In this document: positions 15,339 to 49,335 of the stretch, one piece after another | Numbering within the stretch: position 1 is the first letter of the stretch | How the letters are laid out: every line of letters begins with the position of its first letter | Assembly: GCA_017505745.1 (NCBI GenBank) | Contig: JAFVOP010000073.1 | Location: 1-49,335 of the forward strand | Direction of reading: 5' to 3' | DNA length: 49,335 nucleotides | Source: Clostridia bacterium | GTDB lineage: Bacteria; Bacillota; Clostridia; Oscillospirales; CAG-272 | The notes under the pieces: model-generated | What the model saw: the letters and a program-made list of their open reading frames with translations, nothing else | Database searches by the model: none | What the model was told of the DNA's origin: nothing | Position numbers and translations under genes: made by a program

Positions 15339-15480
15339 GGAACGGGTGATGAAAATGAATAACGGGCAAGACTTTCCCAAACGAAAAAAGAACCGTTTGG
15401 AAAATTATGATTATAGTTCCTGCGGTGCATATTTTATTACAGTATGTACATTGGAAAGACGAAATTTTTTTTGGAAAAAT

Positions 15481-15505
15481 GTAGGGGCGATCATTGATCG
15501 CCCGC
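15481..15505 (+). repeat. REP palindrome inside RAYT gene 1 (left)
   Basis: GTAG followed by GGGCGATCA-t-TGATCGCCC (15485-15503), a perfect 9-base stem. In the reading frame it encodes VGAIIDRP. Confidence 0.85.
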
Positions 15506-15651
15506 AAAACGTTGAATTATCGCTATACGGCAAAATGGTCGATCATGCAATACAAAATATTCCCTCTACCTATCCCACACTGTCGCTTGAAAGCTATGTG
15601 ATCATGCCGAATCATATTCACCTTCTATTAAGAGTTTGCGCCGATGAATAC

Positions 15652-15674
15652 GGGCGACCACTGGTCGCCCCTAC
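15652..15674 (-). repeat. REP palindrome inside RAYT gene 1 (right, inverted)
   Basis: GGGCGACCA-c-TGGTCGCCC (15652-15670) followed by CTAC, that is the same REP in inverted orientation. It encodes GRPLVAPT. The stem differs from the left copy by one compensated base pair. Confidence 0.85.
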
Positions 15675-15897
15675 AATGTCACGGGTGATAAAACAATTAT
15701 AAGGAATTGTATCCAAGCAAGCAGGAATAAGTATTTGGCAAAAAACGTTTCACGATCACATTATCCGAAATCGTGAAGACTATGAAGAACATTTGCGGTA
15801 TATATATGAAAACCCCCTTCGATGGTACTACGACGAATTATACACAGAAGAATAAGGGGAAGAGCTTTTCCCGAAGCCGGCATTCTTTACAGCACTG

Positions 15898-15963: not shown

Positions 15964-16464
15964 ATGTGCAAATATTTGATTAAAAAAATGGAAAGCGAAG
16001 AAGAAATTAACGGCAAAGCGTATGTGCATTATAAATCTTGGCACGACACCTACACGGGGTTAGTTGATACGGCATACATGAGCGGCATCACACTTGAGAA
16101 ATGTATAAATGTAGCGCATAAATGGCGCGAAAATATATTGGTCGCAAAAGACGGAGATAAAATTATAGGATTTGTTGGATATGGTGCATACCGCGATGCG
16201 ACTCTACCCGAACACGGCGAAGTATATGCAATATATGTGCTTCAAGAATATCATGGGTTAAAAGTTGGATATGCTCTTATGAATGCCGCGATAGAGAAAC
16301 TTACCGATTACAAGAAGATTGCTGTTTGGGTATTGAAAGATAACAACAAAGCAATCCGTTTCTATGAACGATACGGCTTTCGATTTGATGGGACTGATAC
16401 AGAAATCATACTTGGAACATCAAATACAGAACGGCGAATGATTTATGAACGGAATGAAAGATAA
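15964..16464 (+). CDS. GNAT-family N-acetyltransferase
   Basis: 166 residues with the GNAT acetyl-CoA fold: an N-terminal substrate part (YVHYKSWHDTYTGLVDTAYM), ILVAKDGDKIIGFVGYGAY, then the motif-A strand VYAIYVLQEYHGLKVGYALM (a variant of the R/QxxGxG/A loop) and the C-terminal NNKAIRFYERYGFRFDG. It resembles cytoplasmic acetyltransferases of small molecules or protein N-termini; the substrate is unknown. ATG 15964 has only a weak AAGG upstream; ATG 15988 is an alternative. The gene is AT-rich like the adjacent RAYT and unlike the flanks. A strong terminator follows at 16491. Confidence 0.88.
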   Translation: MCKYLIKKMESEEEINGKAYVHYKSWHDTYTGLVDTAYMSGITLEKCINVAHKWRENILVAKDGDKIIGFVGYGAYRDATLPEHGEVYAIYVLQEYHGLKVGYALMNAAIEKLTDYKKIAVWVLKDNNKAIRFYERYGFRFDGTDTEIILGTSNTERRMIYERNER

Positions 16465-16564: not shown

Positions 16565-16608
16565 GAGAGACCTGCGGTCTCTCGCGGGCGAACACTGTTC
16601 GCCCCTAC
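16565..16608 (-). repeat. Intergenic REP doublet
   Basis: Two adjacent stems: GAGAGACC-tgc-GGTCTCTC (16565-16583) and GGGCGAACA-c-TGTTCGCCC (16586-16604), the latter followed by CTAC. The second is the same REP family as those inside the RAYT genes, here free-standing between the GNAT gene and the convergent membrane-protein gene. Confidence 0.85.
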
Positions 16609-48440: not shown

Positions 48441-48479
48441 CGGGTATGAAATACGCTTTGTGTTATAATGGGATGGGTG

Positions 48480-49013
48480 ATGAAAATGGATAGTGGAAAA
48501 GAGTTACCGCAAAGAAAGCGTTTACGGTTAAAGAATTTCGATTACAGTACACCCGGGGCATATTTTATAACGATATGCACGCATAACAGAAAATGTACAT
48601 TGTCCCGTGTTGTAGGGGCGATTCACGAATCGCCCGAAATAGAATTCACGGATTATGGAAAGATCACAGACGAAACCATACGGAACATTCCCGAACGGTA
48701 TAAGGCAACAGTAGACCGATATGTGATTATGCCGAATCATATTCACCTAATCATTATAATAACCGATGACGAAGAATTGCGGGCGATTCGTGAATCGCCC
48801 CTACGAGGTCGGTCCGTTATTTCAAAGGTAATTGGATACATTAAAATGAATGCGTCTAAAGAGATACATGGTAAATATGATGATGCTGTGATATGGCAGA
48901 GAGGTTTTCACGATCATATCATTCGTGATTGGCGAGACTACGAAAAAATTGCTAATTATATTTATGAGAATCCGATAAGATGGCAATATGATTGTTTTTT
49001 TGCAGAAGAATAG
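48480..49013 (+). CDS. REP-associated tyrosine transposase (RAYT), intact
   Basis: 177 residues from ATG 48480 (or 48486). The Y1/HUH fold is complete: FDYSTPGAYFITICTHNR, YVIMPNHIHLIIII with the HIH metal pair, and the C-terminal WQRGFHDHIIRDWRDYEKIANYIYENPIRW with the candidate catalytic tyrosines. RAYTs are single-copy, IS200-like transposases that bind and cleave REP hairpins and are thought to spread them. The gene is AT-rich, has an extended -10 promoter (TGTTATAAT, 48461-48469) shared with RAYT 1, and contains two REPs of its own. Confidence 0.93.
   Translation: MKMDSGKELPQRKRLRLKNFDYSTPGAYFITICTHNRKCTLSRVVGAIHESPEIEFTDYGKITDETIRNIPERYKATVDRYVIMPNHIHLIIIITDDEELRAIRESPLRGRSVISKVIGYIKMNASKEIHGKYDDAVIWQRGFHDHIIRDWRDYEKIANYIYENPIRWQYDCFFAEE
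48612..48635 (+). repeat. REP palindrome inside RAYT gene 2 (left)
   Basis: GTAG then GGGCGATTC-ac-GAATCGCCC (48616-48635). In frame it encodes VGAIHESP, the same site as VGAIIDRP of RAYT gene 1. Confidence 0.85.
48781..48804 (-). repeat. REP palindrome inside RAYT gene 2 (right, inverted)
   Basis: GGGCGATTC-gt-GAATCGCCC (48781-48800) followed by CTAC. It is the exact reverse complement of the left copy and encodes RAIRESPL. Confidence 0.85.
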
Positions 49014-49110: not shown

Positions 49111-49335
49111 ATGGAAGATATTGAACTTCAAAAAGTTGACAAGGGCACTCCTCTTGCAGAGGACTTACTGAACTTTGTAAAGGACTTCTCCTGGTTAGAT
49201 GTAAAAGAGCATACGCTGAGAGTGCTTGAAAACTGGGAATTCGAAGAATGGGAAACTCCATTCGTAGCAATAGTGAATGGGCAAATTGTTGGAATGACGA
49301 CCATCATGAAATCTGATTATTACCCATTGCCAGAG
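49111..49335 (+). CDS. GNAT-like acetyltransferase, N-terminal part (runs off the window)
   Basis: 75 codons are open to the end of the window from ATG 49111, preceded by AGGCAGGAAA. The sequence LLNFVKDFSWLDVKEHTLRVLENWEF followed by PFVAIVNGQIVGMTTIMKSDYYP resembles the start of a GNAT fold, with the paired strands before acetyl-CoA motif A. Motif A itself lies beyond the window. It occupies the same place after RAYT 2 as the GNAT gene after RAYT 1, but the two proteins are not close copies. Confidence 0.65.
   Translation, partial: MEDIELQKVDKGTPLAEDLLNFVKDFSWLDVKEHTLRVLENWEFEEWETPFVAIVNGQIVGMTTIMKSDYYPLPE

Follow-up and report, generated by a model that had tools for sequence, protein, structure and literature searches.

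Matched inverted REP pairs inside the reading frames of gut-bacterial RAYT transposase genes as possible substitutes for flanking REP ends

The RAYTs (REP-associated tyrosine transposases, or TnpAREP) were described by Nunvar et al. in 2010 as always being flanked by two inverted REPs (PMC2817692). This arrangement, the REPtron, and the related REPIN and BIME elements consist of GTAG-footed REPs that are paired in inverted orientation around a RAYT gene or a short spacer (PMC2817692, PMC3116915). For the E. coli enzyme (structure 4er8), PMC8266576 describes a GTAG guide and cleavage between C and T beside the REPs. GTAG REPs are also reported within genes other than RAYTs (PMC3733652), and Quentin et al. 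described in 2018 that tnpAREP genes of subclass 2.4 contain REPs that leave the frame intact, generally between the HuH motif and the Y, in a variable region that may have little impact on activity (PMC6006769). Therefore, the bare existence of internal REPs is not new, and the statement in an earlier sequence-only reading of this DNA that REPs normally lie outside RAYT genes is incomplete. PMC8049555, citing Bertels 2017, states that RAYT genes do not copy themselves.

The window, that is, the whole stretch of 49,335 nucleotides from a Clostridia bacterium contig (JAFVOP010000073.1) that was analysed, contains two RAYT genes. Their features and one nearby REP are as follows.

48468-49013, + strand: RAYT2, an intact open frame of 181 aa
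48612-48635, + strand: REP1 of RAYT2, GTAG foot at 48612, codon register 0, codes VGAIHESP
48636-48780, + strand: HUH-coding core of RAYT2, in the position of a REPIN-like spacer; a relative (genome G190) has homologous REP1-core-REP2 units on their own at two loci
48732-48746: PNHIH, the HUH motif of RAYT2, between REP1 and REP2
48781-48804, - strand: REP2 of RAYT2, identical to REP1 on the other strand, codes RAIRESPL
48957-48959: conserved Tyr164 of RAYT2, within YIYENP, invariant in 30 sequences
about 15343-15855, + strand: RAYT1, broken by an in-frame TAA at 15700-15702
15481-15503, + strand: REP1 of RAYT1, of the type with an 8-bp stem and a 3-nt loop
15652-15674, - strand: REP2 of RAYT1
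16586-16608, - strand: extragenic REP of the RAYT1 type, with a second, foot-less palindrome directly before it (about 16566-16584, by eye)

RAYT2 is a RAYT/TnpAREP, with an HUH motif and a single catalytic Tyr in a Y1 transposase fold. The protein matches Y1_Tnp at 2.3e-6 and scores 73.3 bits against the NCBIfam model REP_Tyr_transpos (NF047646), which is below the curated cut-off of 80 for that model; all 30 members of set A1 match the same model at 1e-5 or better. Its best match among solved structures, both by sequence (1.3e-11) and by fold, is the E. coli TnpAREP 4er8, which is of a different subclass and has its REPs outside the gene. The predicted model of RAYT2 (pLDDT 82.5) would put the REP1-encoded residues at the tip of a beta-hairpin, in the loop between strands 46-49 and 57-60, and, with low confidence, the REP2-encoded residues in a loose loop (99-116) that leads from the HUH strand (91-98) to a helix (117-136). 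The motifs NHIH, WQ and YIYENP (Y-I-x-x-N-P) agree with those tabulated for subclass 2.4 in PMC6006769 (NH[IFV]H, WQ and YIxNNP), and, judged by these motifs, the RAYT genes discussed here probably belong to subclass 2.4 of Quentin et al. and group 4 of Bertels et al.

As in the description of subclass 2.4 in PMC6006769, these genes encode HUH/Y1 RAYTs with NHIH, WQ and YIxxNP motifs, in-frame REPs and a variable beta3-alphaC loop. Unlike that description, they mostly have two REP sites, one of them 5' of the HUH motif. The REPs at these sites always face opposite ways by site, have matching stems and trade off with flanking REPs, and breaks occur at their feet. The GTAG-footed REPs in inverted pairs are shared with the REPtron, REPIN and BIME, but here the pair brackets the HUH-coding core within the gene, and at two loci this core is itself the spacer of a REPIN-like unit. 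Palindromic repeats that are translated within open reading frames are likewise known as Rickettsia palindromic elements (RPE) and intragenic GTAG REPs (PMC3733652); as described there, those occur in varied host genes and mostly at varied sites, whereas here the host is a transposase gene and the repeats are paired and matched. The in-frame REPs as such are published, and it is the pattern (matched inverted pair, synonymous constraint, trade-off and breaks at the feet) that was not found in the text covered of PMC6006769. The matched pairing, the trade-off and the breaks at the feet were not found in the RAYT/REP literature covered, which included main-text passages of PMC6006769, PMC3733652, PMC2817692, PMC8266576 and PMC8049555.

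The two REPs of RAYT2 are both 24 nt long and inverted, one on each side of the HUH motif, and the inverted-repeat arms, 29 nt long, are 97% complementary. The layout of RAYT1 is the same and its stems are different. The sequence-only reading had claimed an inverted REP pair at equivalent sites inside both genes, and the pattern matches and inverted-repeat arms confirm it. The REPs of RAYT2 are, as claimed, exact reverse complements: starting from the GTAG foot, both read the same. The end of REP2, however, lies at 48804 and not at 48800. In RAYT1, the one compensated stem pair said to separate the REPs is present, but a loop base also differs (edit distance 3), and the gene given as 15349-15855 is not open because its frame stops after 130 aa at the TAA at 15700-15702; there is an intact relative, L058. 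The pattern GTAGGGGCGA..CGCCC has five matches in the window versus 0.00 expected (100 shuffles), at 15481-15503(+), 15652-15674(-), 16586-16608(-), 48612-48635(+) and 48781-48804(-). There are none from 16608 to RAYT2, none in the 322 nt 3' of RAYT2 and none upstream of RAYT1, which has a single match 731 nt downstream. Both genes are also missing from the list of genes with a flanking REP within 400 nt, and neither has the inverted REPs on both sides that characterize a REPtron.

The RAYTs of the window are associated with GTAG-footed REPs dispersed in their genome. The window's own genome has 34 matches to the REP pattern, so that the motif is indeed repeated elsewhere, as the sequence-only reading had expected; four matches are internal to RAYTs, one (contig C79) forms no hairpin, and a reversed control pattern gave two. 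The internal REP types occur at up to 27 copies (type A) and 54 copies (type G) per genome and were detected in 24 and 28 of 49 genomes, respectively. In genomes chosen because they are carriers, hits in 10 of 10 (type A) and 7 of 7 (type G) are trivial because the RAYT-internal REPs were themselves counted. Several RAYTs per genome blur the tally of cognate REPs against RAYT types, and no statistic is claimed for it.

The extragenic REPs of the RAYT1 type in this genome (G000) are often tail-to-tail dimers, 2 nt apart, for example at C1:43849-43896, C33:2266-2313 and C86:5751-5798. In the nine dimers listed, a TT-type stem is joined with a different one of AA- or AC-type, in contrast to RAYT-internal pairs, which mostly match. 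At two contig ends (L034 and L035, on G000:C87 and C1) a RAYT2-like gene shows one and the same unusual junction within REP1, where a short direct repeat restarts upstream of REP1; this is either a real duplication or an assembly artefact.

Homologues were collected by a scan of named contigs (80 loci kept), by three profile searches that covered 147, 391 and 398 partly overlapping genomes, and from fetched stretches. These sources gave 207 distinct full-length copies, from which one (L207) was dropped because its HUH motif, MSNHIH, was missed by the pattern, leaving 206. Site 1, 5' of the HUH motif, has a REP(+) in 136 homologues and a REP(-) in none; site 2, 3' of the motif, has a REP(-) in 155 and a REP(+) in 13. 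In 123 genes both sites are filled by inverted REPs, site 1 alone is occupied in 13, site 2 alone in 32 and neither in 38; because a REP call demands a hairpin, the method itself selects in part for palindromes. The codon register of site 1 is 0 in 122 of the 123 two-REP genes, and that of site 2 varies with REP type. One carrier comes from a named strain, Anaerosolibacter carboniphilus DSM 103526 (L060), so the trait is not confined to metagenome bins.

The two REPs of a gene resemble each other much more than under random pairing. They are on average 1.67 edits apart (47 identical pairs and 95 at two edits or fewer among the 123 genes), as compared to a mean of 8.32 and a minimum of 7.50 in 2000 random re-pairings, and their lengths are equal in 116 of 123 genes where about 41 are expected. 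At the same time there are 70 distinct REP1 sequences in these genes, which bears out the earlier proposal that stems differ between genes and match within a gene. A second set of 33 further genes, several of them from genomes already sampled, behaves similarly: 24 have both sites, 15 of these pairs are identical, and the mean is 0.79 edits versus 7.96; site 1 was called (-) in two and site 2 (+) in one.

In several genes the internal REP units have grown into tandem arrays (L282 on G203:C53, L287, L102, L131 and L255). L282 has six REP(+) copies, mostly in 42-nt steps, and L287 and L102 have repeated GLAPP-coding units.

The hairpins could in principle follow from the encoded peptide, and chance or protein-level constraint had been named as what would undo the sequence-only reading. 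In 6150 random synonymous versions of the 123 two-REP genes, a REP was retained at one or the other site in 53 and at both in none; therefore, the hairpins are not a by-product of the peptide. Codon identity, scored where the residue is the same in gene pairs at most 75% identical, is 0.94/1.00/0.46 for REP1, REP2 and the rest of the gene in type A, 0.86/0.90/0.45 in type G, 0.93/0.72/0.47 in type C (the lowest REP2 value of all) and 0.87/0.94/0.53 in type D; since REP1 motifs served to name the types, the REP1 values are biased more than the REP2 values. Protein-level constraint as the source of the palindromes is rejected by both tests.

Segment 48600-48816 folds into a REP1-REP2 panhandle (z -6.65 as RNA and -5.76 as DNA), and this fold is what an explanation by mRNA autoregulation would build on, with the REP hairpins or the panhandle damping RAYT translation or being bound by the protein. 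We consider this highly improbable, and it explains less than the other readings. The strong folding of the segment is no evidence of regulation, the REPs are at least three edits apart in 28 of the 123 genes, which weakens the panhandle, and both the truncations at REP feet, which are DNA events, and the trade-off with flanking DNA REPs are left unexplained.

Stem changes were compared in the 69 genes with unequal REPs of one length. Among 53 changed stem pairs, 34 are altered on both sides and still paired in each hairpin, in five only one side is altered and pairing persists, and in 14 one of the copies is unpaired; this count is weak since REP calling favours hairpins. The panhandle is not favoured as the conserved unit.

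Whether the two sites change together was examined on a quick tree from which both loops were left out (143 columns), taking 56 path-disjoint gene pairs. The REPs were closer within genes in 23 pairs and between genes in 10, with nine ties and 14 pairs unchanged (sign test p 0.035; Wilcoxon p 0.003). Among the 10 contrary pairs, nine share 67% identity or more. Thus, the two sites drift apart over short times, in large part by paired stem changes, and are matched again over long times. The homogenisation suggested by the sequence-only reading stands insofar as the pair tends to change together between distant genes; it is not continuous, as close relatives often drift.

The internal REPs trade off with flanking REPs, although the rule is not strict. 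For this comparison, REPs within 250 nt were counted for 192 genes with at least 200 nt of sequence on both sides. A downstream REP(-) is present in none of the 113 genes with both internal sites, in 5 of 12 with site 1 only, in 5 of 31 with site 2 only and in 14 of 36 with neither; for an upstream REP(+) the corresponding values are 9/113, 1/12, 14/31 and 17/36. A full pair, with (+) 5' and (-) 3', is present in 14 of 31 genes with site 2 only, 5 of 12 with site 1 only and 8 of 36 with neither site. The completing partner is absent within 250 nt in 17 of the 31 site-2-only genes (upstream (+)) and in 7 of the 12 site-1-only genes (downstream (-)).

In path-disjoint pairs from the whole tree, site 1 and the upstream REP(+) changed in opposite directions 11 times and in the same direction once (p 0.006), and site 2 and the downstream REP(-) eight times and once (p 0.039), the p values being uncorrected across seven comparisons. 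Other combinations were not significant (opposite to same: site 1 with upstream (-), 2:1; site 2 with downstream (+), 5:2; site 1 with downstream (-), 3:1). One control combination, site 2 with upstream (+), leans the same way at 9:3 and is not significant (p 0.15). Restricted to well-supported branches, the data (about 0 same versus two or three opposite changes in 9-10 pairs) have the same direction and are too sparse for significance. The second set is too small for the trade-off test; the upstream (+) occurs there in 1 of 24 versus 2 of 5.

Our preferred reading, to which we give a probability of roughly 0.57, is that the internal REP pair is a working substitute for flanking REP ends and is recognised by the gene's own product. 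A REP(+) in the beta-hairpin loop 5' of the HUH motif and a REP(-) in the loop 3' of it, with their GTAG feet facing outwards, would take over the job that two flanking REPs have in an ordinary REPtron. The RAYT protein would recognise, and presumably cut and join, the hairpin ends on single-stranded DNA, and would do best with a stretch that contains the core and has one REP(+) on its 5' and one REP(-) on its 3' side. Selection for cognate ends may keep the pair, which may be re-matched when a REP is now and then copied from the pool in the genome or from one site to the other. The observations in support are the fixed sites and orientation, the matching within genes, the synonymous constraint, the trade-off and the fragments that end at REP feet; the trade-off and the broken copies together point to ends that act at the DNA level. 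Against it are the absence of the full pair from some genes and the mixed outcome of the concerted-change test. Overall, the interpretation offered by the sequence-only reading is partly supported.

If the internal pair does replace flanking ends, recognition sites locked in the reading frame would give the gene its own cognate pair, retained through transfer. This touches two open questions, namely what keeps RAYTs and REPs matched and whether RAYTs are still mobilizing DNA, and the 70 distinct REP1 sequences in 123 genes are a natural series for specificity tests.

The trade-off also bears on the view that the REPs are tolerated passengers, which landed by chance and persist because two permissive loops accept any in-frame peptide. 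PMC6006769 takes a view of this kind for subclass 2.4, and PMC3733652 does so for intragenic REPs. Both sites fall in loops of the predicted RAYT2 model, REPs inside unrelated genes are known (PMC3733652), tandem REP growth at the sites of several genes fits permissive loops, and some genes have a single internal REP and no matching flanking REP. However, passengers would leave unexplained the fixed opposite orientations, the matching across many stems, the synonymous constraint and the trade-off, and we think it quite unlikely that the REPs are no more than that.

Broken copies of these genes are a further source of evidence. From 37 truncated entries away from sequence ends we removed the two of L196, which an insertion splits, the two of L282, which belong to a tandem REP array, and the seven of a degenerate repeated family in G203 (L283-L286), merged L275 with L292 (two entries each), set aside L199 and the second copy of L189 as ambiguous, and added L355, which left 23 broken copies with 27 ends. 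Of these ends, 21 are within 10 nt of a REP foot relative to at least one close relative (12 of 16 5' ends and 9 of 11 3' ends); offsets depend on the relative used (-16, -7 and -1 for L275/L292), and L301 and L355 were scored by eye. The ends away from REP feet are those of L267, L271 and L306 (5'), the first L189 copy, L201 and the first copy in L292. Two 21-nt intervals in a gene of about 500 nt would be hit by chance about 8% of the time, and the binomial p is <1e-9 even at 20%; some of the fragments came from a search with a core profile, and such a search favours copies in which the core is preserved. L355, which resembles the two stand-alone units described below, is a copy broken at the REP1 foot and has a C-terminal deletion, and a fragment in the window's own genome (C24:17395) starts at the CTAC foot of REP2. 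Fragments that end at REP feet are traces of DNA breaking and joining at these sites, either by the RAYT enzyme or by recombination.

The genome G190 contains two stand-alone REP1-HUH core-REP2 units (L290 and L291), of 203 and 204 nt from foot to foot, which are nearly identical to each other and have unrelated flanks. Their first 160 nt or so are nearly identical to the core of the RAYT that adjoins one of them, a RAYT without its own REP2; the REPs of L290 carry mismatches and were not called by the REP detector. A third, worn unit (L331) lies inside a REP array of genome G034. Inverted REPs around a short spacer, stand-alone and dispersed as in a REPIN, were thus seen only in relatives (L290 and L291 in G190), and no stand-alone core unit was found in the window's own genome. 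A bolder version, which we rate as less likely than not, is that the HUH core of these RAYT genes is itself a mobile REPIN, whose translated, matched ends replace flanking ends, and that the enzyme cuts its own gene there, releasing core units and truncated copies, with the ends changing specificity together with the enzyme.

The main rival to the substitute-ends reading is that recombination or gene conversion between dispersed REPs, independent of RAYT activity, re-matches the sites and makes the broken copies. The homology is at hand, as the internal REP types reach tens of copies in some genomes; distant pairs are re-matched and close ones drift; recombination between dispersed REPs also puts break points at REP edges; and among 22 genomes of the family no empty site for L290 was found, both its flanks being seen only in G190. 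Recombination alone does not explain why flanking REPs are scarce beside internal ones, and the foot-to-foot stand-alone units would require a REP pair already at the target; we judge this explanation unlikely.

Exchange of the REP-bounded core as a cassette between RAYTs was considered as well. The N-terminal parts of L150 and L158 are 94% identical and their cores 36% (protein and DNA identity), which had hinted at it. At synonymous sites, the smallest p among 7329 gene pairs was 1.4e-3, and cassette exchange is not claimed because this is the chance level over that many pairs.

Genome G203 has several copies of a degenerate repeat that derives from a RAYT (L283, L284 and L285, on C22, C19 and C121). 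The copies have internal deletions in common, and some are in tandem with steps of about 210 nt, which suggests that a non-autonomous RAYT derivative has spread there.

Non-coding ends are shared by several RAYTs in this lineage (15964-16464 and 49111-49335 in the window; L061, L065, L128 and L131). For example, ACAAAGGCGAAA follows the stop codon and is in turn followed by differing small genes; the 3' motif as written is present at 7 of 189 loci. The cut-off frame 3' of RAYT2 has no Pfam match at 0.01, and the small gene 3' of RAYT1 encodes a GNAT acetyltransferase.
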